A stretch of DNA of 35,176 bases from a virus. Position numbers and translations under genes: made by a program. The notes under the pieces are model-generated. The model did no database searches. It saw only the letters and a program-made list of their open reading frames with translations, and was not told the DNA's origin. Position 1 is the first letter of the stretch. Every line of letters begins with the position of its first letter. Shown here piece after piece: positions 11,987 to 25,208 of this stretch. Location: the IMG/VR virus record IMGVR_UViG_3300030451_001056, positions 1 to 35,176 of that record. The stretch is one strand, 5' to 3'.

Positions 11987-12220
11987 TTGAAGTTGTTAGT
12001 ACGAGTTATGATCATCCTGTTACTTATAACAATAACAGGATGCGGAAGAGGGTGGAGCGTAGGAGGCTACCAAATCACACCTCAGGATACTGTGTCGAAT
12101 ACAGTTTTTATAGAGATAATGGGGGCTGATTCAGTTGTTCATTATTATCACGGAAGAGTATACACAAAGTCAAATTGGTGTTGGTTGCATAATCAATTTG
12201 AAGACATAGAACATGACTGA
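11987..12220 (+). CDS. Small lipoprotein, candidate outer-membrane spanin
   Basis: The frame from a TTG start gives a lipoprotein signal: a basic start (MKLLVRV), a hydrophobic core (MIILLLIT) and a lipobox ITGC with Cys19, predicted to be lipid-modified by signal peptidase II. The mature part is only about 58 residues. Lying directly before a membrane-anchored coiled-coil protein, it could be the outer-membrane partner of a two-component spanin, which fuses inner and outer membranes at lysis. Known pairs often come in the opposite order, so this remains inference. GGAG lies close before TTG; an ATG at 12008 is an alternative start but would leave a signal peptide without positive charge. Confidence 0.5.
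   Translation: MKLLVRVMIILLLITITGCGRGWSVGGYQITPQDTVSNTVFIEIMGADSVVHYYHGRVYTKSNWCWLHNQFEDIEHD
12013..12042 (+). repeat. Perfect 10-bp inverted repeat inside the lipoprotein signal-peptide coding region
   Basis: CATCCTGTTA (12013-12022) and TAACAGGATG (12033-12042) are exact reverse complements with a 10-base loop. The element encodes the hydrophobic core and lipobox of the lipoprotein. It may slow translation or be chance in coding DNA. Confidence 0.5.
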
Positions 12221-12530
12221 TGTCAAAACTGCAAGGAGCTATCGTGGTCATTTGGTTGACGATAATATGGTTCTTAGCATTAACATCAAATGGATTATAC
12301 AGTTATGTGTTCTTGTGGGTGCTATTGTGTATGGGTACTATCGTATTGAGTCAAGATTGGGTAAACTTGAGTCGGAACTGGTCGAAGCAGATAGCACGAT
12401 TCGGAGTTTATTGCATAAACATAGCTTGGAAGAACAGCGGGAAAGGGCAGAATTGGAAAGTCGAATTTCATTCTATGAAAAAGAATTTAACATCAACCCA
12501 TTCAGTTGGGGAAAAAAGAAGCGGAAATGA
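12213..12530 (+). CDS. Membrane-anchored coiled-coil protein (inner-membrane spanin-like)
   Basis: The product is 105 residues. About 22 polar residues are followed by one transmembrane helix (INIKWIIQLCVLVGAIVYGY), then a long coiled coil rich in Glu, Leu and Arg (RIESRLGKLESELVEADSTI...), ending NPFSWGKKKRK. One membrane anchor plus a periplasmic coiled coil is the plan of inner-membrane spanins, and the lipoprotein gene upstream overlaps it by eight bases. A tail or envelope-associated scaffold is an alternative. An overlapping ORF in another frame (12220-12537) also looks hydrophobic but lacks the coherent coiled coil and is taken as a shadow. Confidence 0.6.
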   Translation: MTDVKTARSYRGHLVDDNMVLSINIKWIIQLCVLVGAIVYGYYRIESRLGKLESELVEADSTIRSLLHKHSLEEQRERAELESRISFYEKEFNINPFSWGKKKRK

Positions 12531-12895
12531 ATCATAATGAGTTTCAACACATTGCAGAAGAGTTATTCGGAAAGGCTGTATGGGTGGCTTTTGCATACTT
12601 GGGCGTATCTATCTTTAAGGGACTCATACTTAATGTCTACGAAGGGCTTATGGTTTTTATTGGGAATGATTTTAATCAAGATGACGTTGTATATTTGGGC
12701 CCAGAAGAACGGCCTGCTCGCATTGTTCGCATGGGAATTAGAAAAACGGTTTTCTATATGAAGGATGGAGACGGCAGGTGGACAATCAAAATGGCAGTTC
12801 CTAACGAGGCCTTGAAGACAATGGTCATTAAAAAAGAGTTACCGAAAAATGGTGGTAAGTTTCATAGCATAACAGGACAGGAAGATGGAAAATAA
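12527..12895 (+). CDS. MscS-like beta-domain membrane protein
   Basis: The ATG at 12527 overlaps the previous stop as ATGA, which decides the start. The product is 122 residues. A hydrophobic helix lies at about 14-45 (WVAFAYLGVSIFKGLILNVY, then GLMVFIGN). After it comes a beta segment NDFNQDDVVYLGPEERPARI, then MGIRKTVFYMKDGDGRW and MAVPNEALKTMVIKK. The order (F..DDVV..G....ARI....T....DG....VPN..L) recalls the cytoplasmic beta domain of small mechanosensitive channels, but with only one hydrophobic segment. It may be a pore-forming or envelope protein acting at lysis or during DNA entry. The resemblance is visual and needs a profile search. Confidence 0.5.
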   Translation: MNHNEFQHIAEELFGKAVWVAFAYLGVSIFKGLILNVYEGLMVFIGNDFNQDDVVYLGPEERPARIVRMGIRKTVFYMKDGDGRWTIKMAVPNEALKTMVIKKELPKNGGKFHSITGQEDGK

Positions 12896-16759: not shown

Positions 16760-18463
16760 ATGTATAATAGCTCTGACAAATCAAAAGGTTATATGCCAGT
16801 TCCTTCTGGCCCAAACATGACTGGTTTTGATATGGGCAAAACATCCAGTCTAATGGAGATGATGCAGACTGGTGGACAGACTACTAGAGGTGGAGCCTTA
16901 CTGGCCCGTGCATTACAAATGCAGAGTGATCAAAGAAGGCTAGAAGAGGCACAAAGAGCAGAGGCTAAAAGGCAAAAAAGAGGTGGTCTGTTTGGTAGTA
17001 TTGGTGGCTTGGCTGGAGGTCTTTTAGGTGCGGCGTTAGCACCAGTTACGGGGGGTGCGAGTTTAGCATTAGCGGCCGGTCTTGGAACTGCTTTAGGAAA
17101 AAGAGCTGGTGAAGGATTGGGTGCCGGTAAGTCTAGGAGTGTTGATAGGTCTGGAACCGTATTTGGACAACAATCATTTAGGGATGTAGAAAAAGCAAGT
17201 CGTGATTATACAAGAGGTATGGGTGAAAGAGCTTTACTTTCAGGATTGCAAGCGGCGGCTACGGCGGGTTTTTCTCCGGGTGGAGGTATATATGGCAAGG
17301 TTGCAGGGAGGTTAAACCCTTCATCAATATCGTCCCTTACTGAATTTTCATCTGGTGTTGCCCCTACGGCATCAGGTTCTGTTATACCTGCTAGTGCCGA
17401 TGCAGAGATGTTAGGAGATGTAGTAGTTCCAGAATTTGATACTTCCTTAACAGATGTTTCAGATATGGTTCTACAGCCAACGGAAGATGCATATCAAGCA
17501 AGTTTGGCAAATGCTCTGTCGCTAGGTGAAGATAATACATTATTGGATGCGGCTCGCACAGCTCAAGCGGCACAGGCTACCGCAGAAGAGGCAAGTAGGT
17601 CAGCGGGTTCTCTAATAGGATATTTAGAAAGACAAGAATTAGGCCCACTTGCAGATTCACTTAGAATGGCCCCTGCTCCAAGCATGGATCCGTCATTAAC
17701 TGAGGTTGTTAGTCCTTACTTTAATTTACCAATGTCTCCAAATAGAGCTCCTTCTATGAATACTCCTAGTGATGCTAGTTTTATAGCTTCTTACTTAAAT
17801 AGACTTCCTAGATTTGAAGATGGTGGTCTTATTGGCTATAATATGGGTGGAAGTACTTCAGGAGGAGAAGGTGACGATGATACAGCAGAACAAACTGGAA
17901 CCGGGATCGTATATACTGATCCTGATGTTGATACAGGAGCAGGTGACGATGATACAGGAGTACAAACTGGTACCGGTACCAGTTCCACGAACGTACCTTT
18001 CATCGGAAGCTCTTTAACGGCAGAGGGGATTTTAGAACAGCAAGGCTTAGAGGCAACGCCTGAGCAGTTAGCATTATTTCAAAGGTTTGATCCTACTGGA
18101 ATACAAAGTGCCACACAGGCTACTGGTGAAAGTCTTCTTGGTATGACTGGAGGGCAGGGACTGGCGAGTGTTGGTGGTGGTTTTGGATCACAACAAATAG
18201 CAGTATCTCAAGCGGTAGGGCAAGCTCAACAGTCTCTTGAAGGACAAATAGAAGCAGAGCAAAGAGGATTTGAGTCACAAACCTTGGGAACTGCGGCAGA
18301 CATTCTTGCAGGTGGTGGAGAATTTTCAGTAGCTGAATCTGTTCCTATGCAACCTCCAACTAGCCCGCCATCATCTCCTCTCGCTAATCATACATGGATT
18401 CAAACCGGCCCAGATGGCAGAACATATCTTTGGACTGGTAGTCAGTGGGTACCTAGGGGATAA
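16760..18463 (+). CDS. Internal virion / ejection-type protein with Gly-rich membrane segment
   Basis: The product is 567 residues. After a polar start comes a charged helix (LQMQSDQRRLEEAQRAEAKR). A Gly/Ala/Leu-rich hydrophobic stretch follows at about 77-113 (GGLFGSIGGLAGGLLGAALA...), of the kind that can insert into membranes. The rest is Ser/Ala/Gly-rich and low in structure, with a short acidic repeat (GDDDT..QTGTG twice) and a final Trp-rich tag (TYLWTGSQWVPRG). Along with the next two genes it resembles the three-protein internal core of T7-like and related podoviruses, which is ejected to build a channel across the cell envelope. No direct homology is claimed. Confidence 0.55.
   Translation: MYNSSDKSKGYMPVPSGPNMTGFDMGKTSSLMEMMQTGGQTTRGGALLARALQMQSDQRRLEEAQRAEAKRQKRGGLFGSIGGLAGGLLGAALAPVTGGASLALAAGLGTALGKRAGEGLGAGKSRSVDRSGTVFGQQSFRDVEKASRDYTRGMGERALLSGLQAAATAGFSPGGGIYGKVAGRLNPSSISSLTEFSSGVAPTASGSVIPASADAEMLGDVVVPEFDTSLTDVSDMVLQPTEDAYQASLANALSLGEDNTLLDAARTAQAAQATAEEASRSAGSLIGYLERQELGPLADSLRMAPAPSMDPSLTEVVSPYFNLPMSPNRAPSMNTPSDASFIASYLNRLPRFEDGGLIGYNMGGSTSGGEGDDDTAEQTGTGIVYTDPDVDTGAGDDDTGVQTGTGTSSTNVPFIGSSLTAEGILEQQGLEATPEQLALFQRFDPTGIQSATQATGESLLGMTGGQGLASVGGGFGSQQIAVSQAVGQAQQSLEGQIEAEQRGFESQTLGTAADILAGGGEFSVAESVPMQPPTSPPSSPLANHTWIQTGPDGRTYLWTGSQWVPRG
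17871..17973 (+). repeat. Imperfect 31-bp direct repeat within the ejection-type gene
   Basis: 17871-17901 and 17943-17973 agree at 28 of 31 positions and lie 72 bases apart in the same frame. Each encodes GDDDT..QTGTG. It is an internal duplication in an acidic linker, probably flexible protein. Confidence 0.6.
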
Positions 18464-18465
18464 CA

Positions 18466-19434
18466 ATGGCTAACGGCCCTAGAAGTATATATAGCAGAAG
18501 ACAGCGTTTGGGCCCTGCCCGATACGATAATCCTCTTGCAGACTTTTTAGACAGGTTGCCTGATTATTTTAATCAGTATCAGCAAAATCAATTAGTGCTT
18601 GAAAGACAAAAGCTACAAACTAAAAGATATGAGGATGCACAGAAACAGCAAGAATTTACAAATGAATTAAACTTGATTAAGCTTTTGCCTGAAGAAGCTC
18701 AAGCTGATGCATTTGCTACTTCTAAAATACCAAGAGTTAAGTCTGCTGGTATTCAATTACAAGGAGCTAAACAAGCATTTACAGATAGATTAAATTCAAT
18801 TTACACAGAAAATGTTGGAGACCCTTCTGCGATAAAAACAGGATTGGAGAATTTGCTATCAGAACCTGATATTATAAATAATTCGTCTTATGTTCAAAAA
18901 GTACAAGACAGAATAAAAATAGAAAATCCAAAAGTTGCCAAGCAACAAGTGGATAGTTGGGCAACAGACAATCAAAACAACCCAAGGGTTAATGAAATAG
19001 TTGCTATGGCTAAGCTAGACCCAGAAAAAGCATTGGGCCTTATTGTCCCTCAGAGAACATCTATATCTACAAGTCAAAAACAGGTGTACAACCCCACCAC
19101 TAAAGAATATGGCTATGCGACAGATGAAGAAATTGCCAAAGCAAAACAAACAGATACGACAGAAGATGATGTCATTCCAATATCTGGTGCTCCTAGAATG
19201 GGTGGAAGAGGAAGCACTATGAGCCTTACACAAGTAAACAAAGCAATTTCAGACGTGACCAAAGCCTTGAGTCCAAGACAAAGAAAGCGGGCAGGCTTAC
19301 CTGCATTAACTGAAGAACAGGAAGCTAAGCTAAAATCAAGGCTACAAGCGTTTGAGCGTGAAAGAGACAACCTTTTTAATGTAAATATTGCACCAAGGCA
19401 AAATGAACCTATTGAAATTGAAATTGACTACTAA
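18466..19434 (+). CDS. Internal virion / ejection-type protein, helical
   Basis: This 322-residue protein starts two bases after the previous stop. It is strongly helical and rich in Gln, Lys and Glu, with an extended helix at about 35-70 (YFNQYQQNQLVLERQKLQTK...). A short Gly/Ser linker occurs near 245 (SGAPRMGGRGSTMS) and a charged C-terminal helix near 280-305 (LTEEQEAKLKSRLQAFERER). It has no signal peptide. Its location between two other ejection-type genes and its helical composition fit an internal core protein. The stop overlaps the start of the next gene by one base. Confidence 0.55.
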   Translation: MANGPRSIYSRRQRLGPARYDNPLADFLDRLPDYFNQYQQNQLVLERQKLQTKRYEDAQKQQEFTNELNLIKLLPEEAQADAFATSKIPRVKSAGIQLQGAKQAFTDRLNSIYTENVGDPSAIKTGLENLLSEPDIINNSSYVQKVQDRIKIENPKVAKQQVDSWATDNQNNPRVNEIVAMAKLDPEKALGLIVPQRTSISTSQKQVYNPTTKEYGYATDEEIAKAKQTDTTEDDVIPISGAPRMGGRGSTMSLTQVNKAISDVTKALSPRQRKRAGLPALTEEQEAKLKSRLQAFERERDNLFNVNIAPRQNEPIEIEIDY

Positions 19435-22400
19435 TGCCACTAGAATCACTTCAAAAATTATATGATGGAGTAACCTCTCAGAACGTAAAAATAGGTGACT
19501 TCGACACCTTTAAAACAAAAATGCAAAACCCTGAATCTAGACGTAAGTTTTACGATCAAGTTTCTGCATTAAATATAAAGCTAGGTGAATACGAAACATT
19601 TGAAGCGAAGGTAAGTACATCTGCACCTGCTATAAACCCTCAAGATGTTTTTATTGATCCCGATGAGCCATTGATTGAAGGTGTTAATTTTAAACAAACT
19701 ATATACGACTCTGTAAAGCAACAAGAAAACAGCATTGCTAAAAACAATCCTTATGGTGTTAACCTACCTAGAAAACAAGAGAATATAGATAAAATAAGAG
19801 GCATGGGTGGAAGGGTAATGGAAGGAAGTAACACGTTGCTTGAATTTGATAGCCTTGATAACGGAATAAAAGCTGGGGAAGATATTATTGATAATATTCT
19901 TGATGTTTCTAAAAATGATCCTGCCACTTTTTATTCTAATTATTCAGGATTGCCAAAAGAAAGCCCTGAAGTAAAGTCTTTTTTACAAATATACAATCAA
20001 AAAATTAAGGGTAGCCAACCTAAAGAAGAGACCAATTTAGAAAAGGTTATAAAAGCTTTAAGTCAAAGCAAAGATAATCCACAGTATATAATGAAAGCAT
20101 CTTCTTCTCCTGATCCTGTAAAAGCTTTAGTTGATAACCTTCCAAAAACTGTAATGGGGATACCTACATCTGAAATTTTAGGAGATCAAAGACAAGGCAT
20201 TGCTCCAGACGGCGTTTCTAATAAAAAAGCACAAGAAGAATTAGACAAAAGAAGAAGAGAGCTAGGTCTTCCATTTAAACCTACAGAAGAAGATTTTCAA
20301 AGACAGTATAATAATAGGCTCTTTCTTAAAGAAGTCGCAAAGCTACAAAAAAAGGGACTGACCAAACGTGATGCCTACAGAAAGGCCTCTGTAAATATGG
20401 GTGGAACCCCTCCAAGTGTTATAGACCTTGCAATGGAGAAGTCTATTACAGGTGCGGCTTTTAGAATTGCTGGTTTAGAGCAAACAACAATGCTAGATGA
20501 ATACCCCCCAAATCAACTTGAAGAAATTGTATCTGGCGTGTTTTCAATGGTTATGCCTTTAGATGCGGCCCTTTTTAAAGGTGGTGGTAGTTTAGGTAGA
20601 ATAAAAAAAGTTGGTCAAGCCGCAGAGAAGTCTGCCATGTTATTGGCTAAAACTACAAAAATGCCATTAAGAACTGCTCGTGTTTACATGAAAAGCATTA
20701 TTCCAAGGGTTACTGGAGGTGCAGGTGGATTTACCGCTTTTGATTCCGGCAGAAGCATTGTTGATCAAATAGAATTTACTGGAACGGTTGACCCGATTGA
20801 AGTTGCAGAGCATGCAATGAAAGGCTTTATCACTGGTGGCTCTGTTGGATTTCTTGGTGGAGCTGGTTCATTTGCTGGAAAAAAATTACAAAAAGTAGTA
20901 GGAGCCCCTGTTTCCAAGCAAGCCACAGCAAAAGAAACTTTAGGATTTGTTAGTGAGGTTTTTGGACTTGGCAAGGTTCCGGCCTTACTAGAGGGTAAAG
21001 AGGCAACCAAAGAAGATTATCTGAATGCGGCTCAAATGATAATAGGATTAAAGCTTTTAAAGCACATGGAGCCAAAAGCAGGAACCGCATTAAGAAGTAA
21101 TGTTGCTACTGAAATAGAAAGAATTGTAACAGAAACAGGAAAGCCTTTAGACGTTGTTGCAAATGAAGTAGTAGGTCGTCCTTTAAGAACGGCTATGGAA
21201 CTTGCGATGGAGGGTAAAACACCTGAAAAATCGGTTAGGCAACAGATTACAGAATATGAAGTTGTTGAGGGGACAAAAGATCCTTCACAAATGAGGCAAA
21301 CAGCAGAGCAATTACGAAAACAAGGTTTAGAGTCAACTGCCGAATCTGTTGAACAAACAAGATTACAAGAAGCTTTAGTTTCTTTAAGACAAACGGCAGA
21401 AGGTAAAAGAGAAGGGGTCACAGCAGAACAATCAGAGGTTTTAGCTACTGAGCAACCAAATATATTAACGACTATTGAGTCTTTGAAGAGACAAGGTTTT
21501 TCTCAAGTAGAAGCAGAGCAAAGGGCCAAAACAGTATTAAGGGATGCCGGAGTAAAAACAGAAACAGAAGCTCCAGTAATAATAAATGAAAGAGTTCAAT
21601 TAGAATCACAGATTAAAAGACTATCAGAAAAAATGAGTGATTTTGAAAAATCTGGAACTGAACAAAGAATACTAGACAATCTTCAAATTGAAATAGATGC
21701 AAAAGTTGCAAGACTTAATGAGTTTGATGGTGTAACAGAAAGGACTATCAATGAATTATATTTTCCTGAAGAACCATTAAGGCCAAAGAAAACAGGCCCT
21801 ACTTCTCGTCAAGAGCCAGTAAGTAGAGAGCGTGTAGGAGAAATTGTTAACCTTAGAAGGCAATCTTTTAAAGAAAGAACAGAGGCGTTAGAATCACAAT
21901 TAAAAGAAAGGGACATAGCAGAGCAACAAAGACTTGACAAAACACTTCAAGAGAGAGATATATTTAATCGTCCCTTTGAGTCAAATCCTATGCTTGAGGT
22001 TCCTTTGCATCCGGCAGATGCAGGCAGAAGAGCAGTGGCAGAAATACAAGCAATAGAAACGGCACCACCCACCCCTAAAACAAGACCTACTGGCCCGACA
22101 GTTAAAAAGAAAAAACTAACCGGATTAGACTCGAAAGGCAACGCTAAAGACCACGATATAAAAACTGGTGATCAGGTATATGTAAATGAATCTGGTTATC
22201 TTGGGACTGTTAAAGGATTTAAGCGTGGAAAAGATTCTAATATAGTGACCATTGAAAATGAAAGAGGAAGAGAAAATTTAACAGATAGAAACCTATTTAC
22301 CCCTAAAAAGGTATATGAGGAACGAGTCAATAGAAGAAATACAAAACCGGTATCTGAGCTACAGGGTCAAAAGAGAGTACAAGGATTTTTATTGCAAAAA

Positions 22401-25208
22401 GAATTTTCTGATTTTGATGCTACTTTAAAAGCTAATCAGGCAAGGTTAAATAATCCAAATTTAACAGAGACTGAAATCATAAGAACGGAAAAGTCTATTC
22501 AAAGATTAAATGAGTTAAAAAGAGATACTCAGGATCGTGCTCGGTCACAAGGCATTGAATTGCAAGCGTTTATGGGCATACCTAGTCTAAGACAATTAAG
22601 ACAGTTGTTTGGGTCGGAAAGGTCAAGACCTAGGACGTTAAGAGATGTTGAGTTAGACAGATTGTATAATAATGCAATGCAAAGACTTGATAAAGAAGCA
22701 CCTAAAGAAGAAGTGCAGATTGTTAAAACTGAATCTGAGCAACCCGTTAAAGAAAGAAGTGATGTTTCAAAAGCTTTTAGTTGGTTTTCTGGTGACATGG
22801 TTCAGCGTGTAAGGGATATGGGAACCGAAACATCTCAGAGGGCGGCTGATTTAGCAAGAAAGTCAATAGACACTGAAAAGAAAGTTTATGGAGAAATAAC
22901 ACCAGAGCTAGACATTGTTTTAAAATCAGCGGGTAGTCCATTTTTTACACAAAAAGGAAGGGCAATTAAAGAACTTCAAAAGTTTGTAGATTTAACAATA
23001 GACGGAAAGGAAGTTAAAATGTCTCGCTTGCACGCCGCAATAGAGGGAAAGATACAAGTTAGCGGTAAGGAGATAGAAATAGTTAATGAGTTTAAAGACC
23101 TCATTGAAAAAAGAGGTTTAATATTTGAAAAAAATAATATAATGCAAGAAGGCCCAGACGGAGAGGTGAGACCATTTAAAGTTATGGGTAGAAACATAGC
23201 ACCTAGAATTATGACAGGTGATTTTTATAGAATACTAGAACGTGGTGAGTCAAGTTCTGATTTTAAAAAATTGGTTAAAAAATTTGAAGATGCTACAGGT
23301 CAATCAGAACAGTCCGTTAAAGAGTATTTTGCAGAGCTTTCTCAAAATATAAAAGGGTCAGATTTTGTAGGGAATCAACTACCGACTAGAACAACTCAGG
23401 CAGAACACAGTCGTAAATGGAAAAACATACCACATGCTATTAAAATAGGTAATGATATTGTCCCTTTGGTTGAATATCGTCCTTATGAATATGCTAAAAG
23501 ATTAGCAGAAACTGGAGCAAGTCGTGTTGGAGTTGCAACAACCTTTGGTCAAGAGATAGCAGGAACAAGTATTATTAATGAGATGAAAACTCAAATATCG
23601 AGAGAGGGCGGTGATCCTATTGTGTTTCACGAGTTGATTAGGTCGTTAAGTAGTACACCGGTTGAGCCCTCTTTTAGGCAATCAGGAATAGGAACTACTG
23701 GATATGCAAGTAGAATCACAAGGGGTTTGAATACGTCATTAAACATTTTAAAAACAACTACGTTGTCTCAGTCTATATTTCCAAATATAACAGAACCTCT
23801 TGGTAACATTAGAAAGCATGTAGGGATGCCTACATTAGCAAAAAGCATTTTTAAATTAACCACTAGCCCAAAAGCCATTCAGTCAGCCTTAGAAGCAAAA
23901 GGTGCTATAACAGTAGATATTGCCAATTTGTCTATTGATCCTCAAAGGCCATTGGAATCTTTGGGAAGGGGAACTGAGAATATTTTAAGAAGAGGGTTTG
24001 GATTTCACTACATTAACGAATTTCAAGAAGTGTTAGCGGCAGAAAGCTACAGGCAAAAGACTGAGAGATTTAAAAAAGGAAAAGGTAAGAGTAAGGACAT
24101 TCAGTTGTTACGAGAGATGGATTATTCTGAGGCAGATGCGATACTTATGGTTTCTGGAAAAGCACCGCAACAAATGTATGATGCTATCATAAGGCGTGCT
24201 TCGGCATATATGACTGGAGGTGCCCAAAGAAAAGGTGAGCAGTCTCGGATAGAGCATAGTAGGTGGTATAACAGCTTAACAGCTTTCCAAACTTATGCAA
24301 ATATGAAAAACAGATCCTTAATGAGTGCGGCCAGATTATCTATTCAATCTGGTGCTAAAGAGGCTTGGCAAGAAGGGAATCATAAAAAGTTTACAGATGC
24401 TAGTAGGTTGGCACTGAGCGAGGTTTTAGGAACTGCTGTAGCTGGTATGACAACACAATTTATATTAGCAGGTGTCTACGGCGGTGGAGACAATATGAAA
24501 ATTAAGTGGAATGAAGTTGTCGAAAATCCTTGGGAGTTTTTATTTGAGTCGTATATGTACTCTGCTGTTGGTGGCGTTATGGGGTCAATAATTCAATCAA
24601 CTGTTGATGGTAAGCTTAAAGATAATTTTTTAGAACTGTCTTACCCTGTTTCCGTTGTGTTAGAAATAGAAAAGGCAGTAAATGAAAAAGGCAAGTATAG
24701 CTACCTCGAAGGAATGGATAAAGCCATTGAAGTTGCTAAAAGATATTTCCCAGCCAATAGAGCATATAATACCTTATTGGTGGCTACTGGATTTGGAAAT
24801 GAACAATCTCAAAAAGACGAAAATGCCATCAGGGCTTACTACAGATGGAGATTTAAGAATAAATATGGTGGATCATATACAGGTAATTTAGACGAAGAAC
24901 AAAAAACTTTTCGTATAAATATGAAAAAAGCATACGAGTCACTAAAAAATCAGGAAGAGTATACCGCAGTTGACGATCATGTTATGAGAGCGTTAGAACT
25001 AACTGGTAGAGATGATAAGAGTGCTCTTAGTTCTATACTTGGAAAAAGATTACTCACAAAATCTAAAATTGCACCGGGAAAAAGTGAAGAAGTTTATGAA
25101 GAAAGAATAGATGAACTTATAAGAACTATTGGTGAAGAAGCATATCAAAGACTAGAACTCCATGATAACCTATTAAAAGAATATGCTGAGTTTTGGAAAG
25201 AAGATTAG
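19434..25208 (+). CDS. Giant internal virion protein with putative peptidoglycan hydrolase domain
   Basis: The product is 1924 residues, the largest gene here and last of the rightward unit. Residues 8-60 hold a two-copy motif (LYDG..SQNVKIGDFDTFKTKM / FYDQVSALNIKLGEYETFEA). Residues about 88-192 resemble a muramidase-type domain: VKQQENSIAKNNPYG with candidate catalytic Glu98, LLEFDSLDNGIKAGEDI, then DPATFYSNYSG. Gly/Ala-rich possible membrane stretches lie near 370-480, charged coiled coils near 720-830, and an SH3/KOW-like patch near 902-955 (DQVYVNESGYLGTVKGFKRG). Near 1592-1636 is a segment like the LPD38 domain of large polyvalent proteins, followed by hydrophobic stretches at about 1665 and 1705. 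It probably is ejected with the DNA and locally opens the cell wall. The start overlaps the upstream stop. Confidence 0.65.
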   Translation: MPLESLQKLYDGVTSQNVKIGDFDTFKTKMQNPESRRKFYDQVSALNIKLGEYETFEAKVSTSAPAINPQDVFIDPDEPLIEGVNFKQTIYDSVKQQENSIAKNNPYGVNLPRKQENIDKIRGMGGRVMEGSNTLLEFDSLDNGIKAGEDIIDNILDVSKNDPATFYSNYSGLPKESPEVKSFLQIYNQKIKGSQPKEETNLEKVIKALSQSKDNPQYIMKASSSPDPVKALVDNLPKTVMGIPTSEILGDQRQGIAPDGVSNKKAQEELDKRRRELGLPFKPTEEDFQRQYNNRLFLKEVAKLQKKGLTKRDAYRKASVNMGGTPPSVIDLAMEKSITGAAFRIAGLEQTTMLDEYPPNQLEEIVSGVFSMVMPLDAALFKGGGSLGRIKKVGQAAEKSAMLLAKTTKMPLRTARVYMKSIIPRVTGGAGGFTAFDSGRSIVDQIEFTGTVDPIEVAEHAMKGFITGGSVGFLGGAGSFAGKKLQKVVGAPVSKQATAKETLGFVSEVFGLGKVPALLEGKEATKEDYLNAAQMIIGLKLLKHMEPKAGTALRSNVATEIERIVTETGKPLDVVANEVVGRPLRTAMELAMEGKTPEKSVRQQITEYEVVEGTKDPSQMRQTAEQLRKQGLESTAESVEQTRLQEALVSLRQTAEGKREGVTAEQSEVLATEQPNILTTIESLKRQGFSQVEAEQRAKTVLRDAGVKTETEAPVIINERVQLESQIKRLSEKMSDFEKSGTEQRILDNLQIEIDAKVARLNEFDGVTERTINELYFPEEPLRPKKTGPTSRQEPVSRERVGEIVNLRRQSFKERTEALESQLKERDIAEQQRLDKTLQERDIFNRPFESNPMLEVPLHPADAGRRAVAEIQAIETAPPTPKTRPTGPTVKKKKLTGLDSKGNAKDHDIKTGDQVYVNESGYLGTVKGFKRGKDSNIVTIENERGRENLTDRNLFTPKKVYEERVNRRNTKPVSELQGQKRVQGFLLQKEFSDFDATLKANQARLNNPNLTETEIIRTEKSIQRLNELKRDTQDRARSQGIELQAFMGIPSLRQLRQLFGSERSRPRTLRDVELDRLYNNAMQRLDKEAPKEEVQIVKTESEQPVKERSDVSKAFSWFSGDMVQRVRDMGTETSQRAADLARKSIDTEKKVYGEITPELDIVLKSAGSPFFTQKGRAIKELQKFVDLTIDGKEVKMSRLHAAIEGKIQVSGKEIEIVNEFKDLIEKRGLIFEKNNIMQEGPDGEVRPFKVMGRNIAPRIMTGDFYRILERGESSSDFKKLVKKFEDATGQSEQSVKEYFAELSQNIKGSDFVGNQLPTRTTQAEHSRKWKNIPHAIKIGNDIVPLVEYRPYEYAKRLAETGASRVGVATTFGQEIAGTSIINEMKTQISREGGDPIVFHELIRSLSSTPVEPSFRQSGIGTTGYASRITRGLNTSLNILKTTTLSQSIFPNITEPLGNIRKHVGMPTLAKSIFKLTTSPKAIQSALEAKGAITVDIANLSIDPQRPLESLGRGTENILRRGFGFHYINEFQEVLAAESYRQKTERFKKGKGKSKDIQLLREMDYSEADAILMVSGKAPQQMYDAIIRRASAYMTGGAQRKGEQSRIEHSRWYNSLTAFQTYANMKNRSLMSAARLSIQSGAKEAWQEGNHKKFTDASRLALSEVLGTAVAGMTTQFILAGVYGGGDNMKIKWNEVVENPWEFLFESYMYSAVGGVMGSIIQSTVDGKLKDNFLELSYPVSVVLEIEKAVNEKGKYSYLEGMDKAIEVAKRYFPANRAYNTLLVATGFGNEQSQKDENAIRAYYRWRFKNKYGGSYTGNLDEEQKTFRINMKKAYESLKNQEEYTAVDDHVMRALELTGRDDKSALSSILGKRLLTKSKIAPGKSEEVYEERIDELIRTIGEEAYQRLELHDNLLKEYAEFWKED

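Follow-up and report, generated by a model that had tools for sequence, protein, structure and literature searches.

A giant late gene of an uncultured short-tailed phage appears to carry, near its N-terminus, a compact cell-wall-enzyme domain that related phages may gain, lose and exchange as a cassette. The gene lies in a virus record of 35,176 bases (hereafter the window). Our preferred reading, to which we give a probability of about 0.7, is that residues about 83–196 of the giant protein form a glycosidase of the lysozyme superfamily with Glu98 as proton donor, that they are borne on an ejected protein of a P22/SU10-like phage and would cut the cell wall at DNA entry, and that they constitute an accessory, exchanged cassette. 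The argument starts from the domain itself, its conservation, its predicted fold and its presence or absence in relatives, and extends from these to a putative catalysis, a probable place in the virion, a proposed action at entry and a conjectured mechanism of exchange. Apart from the window, 22 IMG/VR contigs contain the same domain, and BLAST separates its carrier proteins into three types (A, B and C, the window's being type A). Coordinates are collected in Table 1.

Table 1. Features of the window, with positions counted from its first base.
Feature	Position	Strand	Basis and remarks
567-aa glycine/alanine-rich protein with hydrophobic stretch, candidate ejection partner	16760..18463	+	Putative function, from sequence and from the order of genes at six loci
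322-aa protein, candidate ejection partner	18466..19434	+	Putative function; all six type A loci listed have a similar gene 5' of the giant gene
Giant ORF	19434..25208	+	1924 aa; final gene of the late (virion) cluster; portal, major capsid, adaptor and spike genes upstream
Two-fold N-terminal motif, residues 1–63	19434..19622	+	PHROG 24532; model shows two helical hairpins
DNA island, 92% identical to type B giant gene, flanks unmatched	19673..20018	+	blastn; seen base by base in DNA alignment
Lysozyme-like cassette, residues about 83–196	19680..20021	+	Model pLDDT 84.9, pTM 0.76; fold rows; presence/absence in relatives
Codon of Glu98, candidate catalytic acid	19725..19727	+	End of first model helix; 16/16 rows; in register with SpFlgJ E185 and MltF E316
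Conserved C-terminal part, residues 979–1924	22368..25205	+	Common to type A giants, cassette-bearing and cassette-less alike

Predicted fold and conservation of the domain

A sequence-only reading of this DNA had picked out the segment QENSIAKNNPYG...LLEFDSLDNGIKAG as resembling peptidoglycan hydrolases, with Glu98 as candidate acid. The segment is real and belongs to a separate, strongly conserved domain, in which Glu98 is invariant in all 16 distinct rows of the alignment, together with Y91, Q97, N99, N104, N105, Y107, N110, R113 and N117. Nei–Gojobori dN/dS ratios between the window's domain and 17 rows were finite in 16 cases and fell between 0.09 and 0.20 in 15 of them, which indicates that the domain is under purifying selection; the remaining finite value (0.48) came from a pair with only three differences, and in the comparison with L017 dS was saturated.

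Curated profiles gave this domain no name. Scanning nine members against Pfam at E <= 5 returned nothing but Zn_peptidase (E 0.024, in one member) and no match to an SLT or GH73 family, in keeping with the earlier view that this is not a normal SLT domain. NCBIfam matched neither the whole giant protein nor its residues 1–255, PDB sequence searches with the domain named no family, and PHROGs likewise named none, the best profile being phrog_31645 (E 0.0059, four of nine members), of unknown function. A tblastn search of 50,697 phage records with the domain gave only four weak matches, all at E >= 0.8, and no relative turned up when genomes were scanned with the domain alignment or the C-terminal alignment. 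The domain is likely to represent a cell-wall-enzyme family that the curated profiles searched do not recognise.

The predicted structure favours a cell-wall enzyme. An AlphaFold2 model of the domain, built on an 18-row alignment, consists of two helices, a small beta hairpin and three helices. The top row in VIA-align was 3vwo, which we take, from its title, to be the GH73 domain of SpFlgJ (Z 6.4, 102 residues aligned, rmsd 3.7). Further rows included the T6SS protein Tge (4kt3, Z 6.2), a GH19 chitinase (3hbd, 6.1), LytB (7pj3, 6.0), the Ecd09610 GH73 domain (8yxk, 5.3), MltF (4.9), Auto (3fi7, 4.7), T4 lysozyme (4.5) and MltD (4.4); solved GH73 domains are represented by 3vwo, LytB, 8yxk and Auto, and every VIA score lies below 8, a range that VIA-align calls common and that is no proof. 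Judged by title, and with some family assignments presumed, 15 of the 18 rows at Z >= 4.1 are cell-wall or chitin glycosidases or T4 lysozyme. The other three are a phosphatase (4ex7, Z 6.1, with only 74 residues aligned), an amidase (5t1q) and a receptor entry (6lry), and bromodomains come next, at Z about 3. Foldseek returned nothing significant for the domain model against the PDB (best E 1.7; 8yxk at E 2.3), and against BFVD it returned three viral proteins with probabilities of 1.00, 1.00 and 0.99 (E 0.0025, 0.021 and 0.097), the third of which is named 'Peptidoglycan binding-like'. By these 15 rows the predicted fold appears lysozyme-like, and the muramidase-like reading of the domain is supported as a prediction. 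Neither of the two outcomes that the sequence-only reading had named as fatal to its idea, a predicted fold unlike lysozyme or transglycosylase and a lack of a conserved Glu among relatives, was observed.

We examined the register of Glu98 on SpFlgJ, MltF, T4 lysozyme, Auto and LytB. Glu98 is residue 21 of the model and the last residue of its first helix (9–21). Counted from the first aligned pair, with the helix ungapped, it falls on residue 11 of T4 lysozyme (11 on 1), which we take to be the catalytic glutamate, as well as on E185 of SpFlgJ (8 on 172) and E316 of MltF (8 on 303). On Auto it lies two positions off E122, and on LytB no fit was obtained without a gap of several residues, given a presumed offset between the Glu585 numbering and that of 7pj3. 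A conserved candidate catalytic glutamate stands at the end of the central helix, in register with SpFlgJ and MltF and not, ungapped, with Auto or LytB. E185 is described as the putative general acid/base of SpFlgJ (PMC4752226) and E316 as the catalytic glutamate of MltF (PMC10746161); Glu585 is the catalytic residue of LytB in that paper's own numbering, which differs from that of 7pj3 (PMC4633669). The parts of the literature looked through gave no catalytic residues for 8yxk or 4kt3.

One alternative, which we consider unlikely, is that the domain has a lysozyme-like fold and is catalytically dead, serving in the ejected protein as a binding or spacer module for peptidoglycan or another glycan. 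Inactive lysozyme-fold domains do exist, and this one is dispensable in many relatives; yet Glu98, Q97, N99, N104, N105, Y107, N110 and R113 are invariant in all 16 rows, as in an active site. No second acidic residue of the domain could be given a firm role (the Glu of its LLEF motif is replaced by Gln in one row, L037), which would suit an inert module, but GH73 enzymes are described as having a conserved Glu near a helix end as proton donor and not always needing a second acid (PMC4633669), the second carboxylate being dispensable in some of them (PMC4752226, PMC4633669).

Less probable again, in our judgement, is a chance likeness of fold in a small alpha-rich domain with some other role at entry, for example in channel or DNA contacts. 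VIA scores below 8, Foldseek E values above 1 against the PDB and the lack of a profile match would all agree with chance, which would nevertheless have to account for glycosidases and T4 lysozyme in 15 of the 18 leading rows with bromodomains following only at Z about 3, for the high BFVD probabilities and the peptidoglycan-related name of the third match, and for an invariant Glu at the expected place in three of the proteins checked.

A shared cassette in three kinds of giant protein

From this predicted glycosidase, with Glu98 as its candidate proton donor, we turn to its distribution. Type A carriers comprise the window and, among others, L013, L017, L024, L035 and L037; type B carriers are L022/L045 and L023, with an ORF of 1390 residues; and type C carriers, of up to 1678 residues, are L030–L034 and L036, with L034, a fragment, placed here on the strength of its N-terminus. 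The first residue of the domain is about 83 in type A, 44 in type B and 53 in type C, and the domain is 65–90% identical across three giant proteins that hardly match otherwise. In protein BLAST, types B and C match the window's giant only in residues 82–243 and 85–196, with the exception of one 64-residue patch of type C (E 6e-4). At the DNA level, the window shares 346 bp at 92% identity with the type B giant gene, the rest of which is unmatched by blastn at E 1e-5, and 282 bp at 75% identity with type C. A tree of the module with 17 of the 18 rows, built without the truncated L038, puts the type B and window modules side by side, at weak support (80/74), and unites the type C copies in one clade. 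The shared DNA islands indicate that the predicted cell-wall domain has moved between unrelated giant proteins.

Presence and absence were surveyed with the rest of each giant protein, without the domain, as query. Among 21 type A loci, 19 reach the N-terminus, and the domain is present in 8 of these and absent from 11; it is present in 2 of 3 type B loci (absent from 1) and in 5 of 17 type C loci (absent from 12). The type A relatives were fetched with five proteins that all bear the cassette, and some contigs are near-copies, so the ratio of loci with and without it is no population estimate. All three types show clean insertion or deletion with continuous flanks. L032 and L054 are near-identical in DNA directly before and after the insertion, their whole C-terminal parts being 72% identical. 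The proteins of L045 and L075 continue from the same residues on both sides of the cassette (a continuity read from protein, as the DNA aligner misplaced the shared 5' part), and the giants of L088 (1648 residues) and L086 (1766 residues) are 118 residues apart in length, roughly one cassette.

We also mapped presence onto a tree of the type A C-terminus, made by a quick method with SH-aLRT support only. The tree covers 18 of the 19 N-terminus-complete loci (L078, a near-copy of L079, was left out, and the window's row stands for L076), and its well-supported branches force at least five changes of presence. Against shuffled labels, presence showed no excess of clustering (108 and 119 of 500 shuffles were as low), which fits frequent turnover and tells nothing of function. 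By eye, no other cell-wall enzyme was recognised in the same slot of the cassette-less phages, over the first 260–420 residues of 11 type A, 1 type B and 12 type C proteins, nor in neighbouring ORFs, as judged from the first 110 residues at five cassette-less type A loci and from seven neighbouring proteins in full.

Tentatively, and at a little short of even odds, we propose that these patterns reflect a mobile, in-frame peptidoglycan-hydrolase cassette, for which each of the unrelated giant ejection proteins has one N-terminal site. Short-tailed phages would repeatedly insert it, delete it and pass it from one such protein to another; it would tune entry to differences between host walls and would be no fixed part of the machine.

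The giant gene, its neighbours and lysis functions

The frame of 1924 residues that the sequence-only reading had reported is a real ORF with an ATG start, and it is the last gene in the late module of a short-tailed phage. Pfam identified nearby a P22-type portal (PF16510, E 8e-52), an SU10-type major capsid protein (PF17236, E 3e-26) and an SU10-type adaptor (PF24175, E 2e-7), accompanied by a terminase fragment (a weak match, E 0.003) and by a tail spike that includes an S74 chaperone. From this gene order we infer that the giant is an ejection-type protein. As side observations, one record (G001, 56,959 bp; L070–L072, L048) has two portal-, two major-capsid- and two terminase-like genes by eye, and is either a joined assembly or an odd tandem, and the early region of a type A relative contains a 303-residue ORF (L071:9309–10217, minus strand) with a likeness, by eye, to ArdC-type antirestriction proteins.

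The two-fold motif described in the N-terminal 60 residues proved to be a true repeat: its halves, compared ungapped, score 75, which none of 20,000 shuffles reached (shuffle maximum 49). It could be aligned across 14 type A proteins, matches the PHROG 24532 profile (E 5e-7, residues 7–64) and is modelled as H3–15/H23–31 plus H33–45/H53–61 (pLDDT 74.7). This model gave no row at Z >= 2 among the four PDB chains compared, and one BFVD match, of probability 0.96 but E 1.2. The same motif is found in Cellulophaga phages phi18:3, phi46:3 and phi19:3 (34.8% identity over 66 residues). In phi18:3 it forms a separate 103-residue ORF (gp122, L039:7965–8273) directly 5' of the 1935-residue gp123 (L039:8288–14095), which is annotated as a virion structural protein from MS/MS, and in phi46:3 a small motif ORF and then a giant protein follow in the same order. 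The motif thus precedes a giant protein as a stand-alone ORF in these two phages and is fused in type A phages, a case of gene fission or fusion. BLASTP found no likeness between gp123 and the window's giant (best E 0.28), and the virion location of the latter is therefore an analogy; tblastn with the lysozyme-like domain alone likewise matched no Cellulophaga phage.

An LPD38-like segment proposed near the C-terminus was not borne out, there being no Pfam match to LPD38 in the window's giant at E <= 1. Pfam does place LPD38 (PF18857) in two other, unrelated carriers, L022 (type B, E 8e-14) and L032 (type C, E 4e-26). Profile comparison of the window's C-terminal 946 residues with the C-termini of types C and B gave probabilities of 0.8% and 0.1%, a weak comparison because the control of B against C, both with Pfam LPD38, reached only 33%. 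Type C giants also contain a metallopeptidase-like stretch, HEVAHF ... EGFAEF (L032:6455–11488, residues about 743–811), whose Pfam match is weak and below cut-off, and which agrees with the MPTase domains of polyvalent proteins.

We also sought other cell-wall enzymes. None was found with Pfam among the 28 window proteins scanned, the giant included, and a profile of the domain matched only the giant ORF among window frames of at least 40 residues. The assertion that the window holds no endolysin elsewhere therefore stands for those 28 proteins, which are part of the ORFs of a window that is itself a fragment. Three overlapping small ORFs at 12008–12537 (12008–12220, 12213–12530 and 12220–12537) may be a lysis cassette, the one at 12213–12530 having a weak match to an Rz-like spanin profile (E 0.024). 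By eye, a lysozyme-looking ORF of 165 residues occurs in 4 of 20 records, namely the type B record G006, which bears the cassette, and three type C records without it; its absence from the remaining records says little, these being fragments. This ORF has no Pfam match at E <= 1 (L055:14591–15085, plus strand), and its protein is 100% identical there, in a type C phage without the cassette, and at G006:5895–6389 (minus strand); it is probably an endolysin. The suggestion that the giant's domain may be the only cell-wall enzyme is accordingly weakened, both by the separate ORF in G006 and by the 11 of 19 type A relatives that lack the domain.

That the domain, produced within the giant protein, is itself the endolysin that lyses the host when infection ends seems very improbable: no other such enzyme appeared among the 28 scanned proteins, nor by eye in ORF lists covering about 42 kb of a 57-kb relative, but the window is a fragment, the domain is fused to a late protein of 1390 to 1924 residues in the gene-complete carriers, the module-bearing G006 has its own lysozyme-looking ORF, and sister phages without the domain must lyse too.

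Known entry enzymes and the meaning of an optional domain

Under our preferred reading of a glycosidase acting at entry, the giant protein would probably travel inside the head of a short-tailed phage of P22/SU10-like type and be ejected together with the DNA. Once in the periplasm, its compact domain would cut peptidoglycan locally, allowing ejected proteins and DNA to pass, as T7 gp16 does, and related phages would gain, lose and exchange the cassette at one N-terminal site per giant protein type. By analogy with such systems, packaging and ejection into the periplasm with local opening of the wall are likely, and action of the domain at DNA entry is plausible.

The N-terminal lytic transglycosylase domain of T7 gp16, an ejection protein, is described as serving DNA entry and as needed only under certain conditions (PMC8954989). 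Like gp16, the window's giant is a large late protein with a predicted cell-wall enzyme domain near its N-terminus; unlike gp16, its domain has no SLT profile match, follows a two-fold helical motif and is present in some relatives and absent from others. The likeness is one of description, no profile having named gp16 for the window's giant. SU10 gp20 is likewise reported as an ejection protein with a cell-wall enzyme domain (PMC9509320), and Pectobacterium phage PhiM1 as having ejection proteins with such domains located inside the proteins (PMC11440229). These are also short-tailed phages, and the window has an SU10-type capsid and adaptor, so far as descriptions can be compared; in contrast to the internal domains of PhiM1, the window's lies near the N-terminus. 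Polyvalent phage proteins are giant and multidomain, and their lysozyme domains have been postulated to breach peptidoglycan at invasion (PMC5512222). Two carriers of the cassette resemble them in having Pfam LPD38, whereas the window's giant does not. The domain resembles GH73/FlgJ, T6SS Tge and MltF in its predicted fold and, for FlgJ and MltF, in the position of its candidate catalytic Glu, but it differs from them in having no sequence-profile match and no second acid identified.

What is most likely new is a sequence family that the searched profiles do not recognise, together with the way in which it comes, goes and is swapped as an optional cassette; a cell-wall enzyme of this kind is already known in ejection proteins, and it is the mobility that is unusual. 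The portions of the literature looked through contained no cassette of this kind, the nearest described case found being domain swapping between K1E and T7. Descriptions of entry enzymes usually treat them as domains fixed within a particular group of phages, whereas here the domain is optional and thus not required in all relatives, and its repeated loss and gain fits a conditional need for opening the wall. Natural pairs of otherwise homologous giant genes with and without the cassette (L086/L088, L093/L087, L045/L075 and L032/L054) exist, with substitutions elsewhere too, and through them the need for an entry hydrolase becomes testable.
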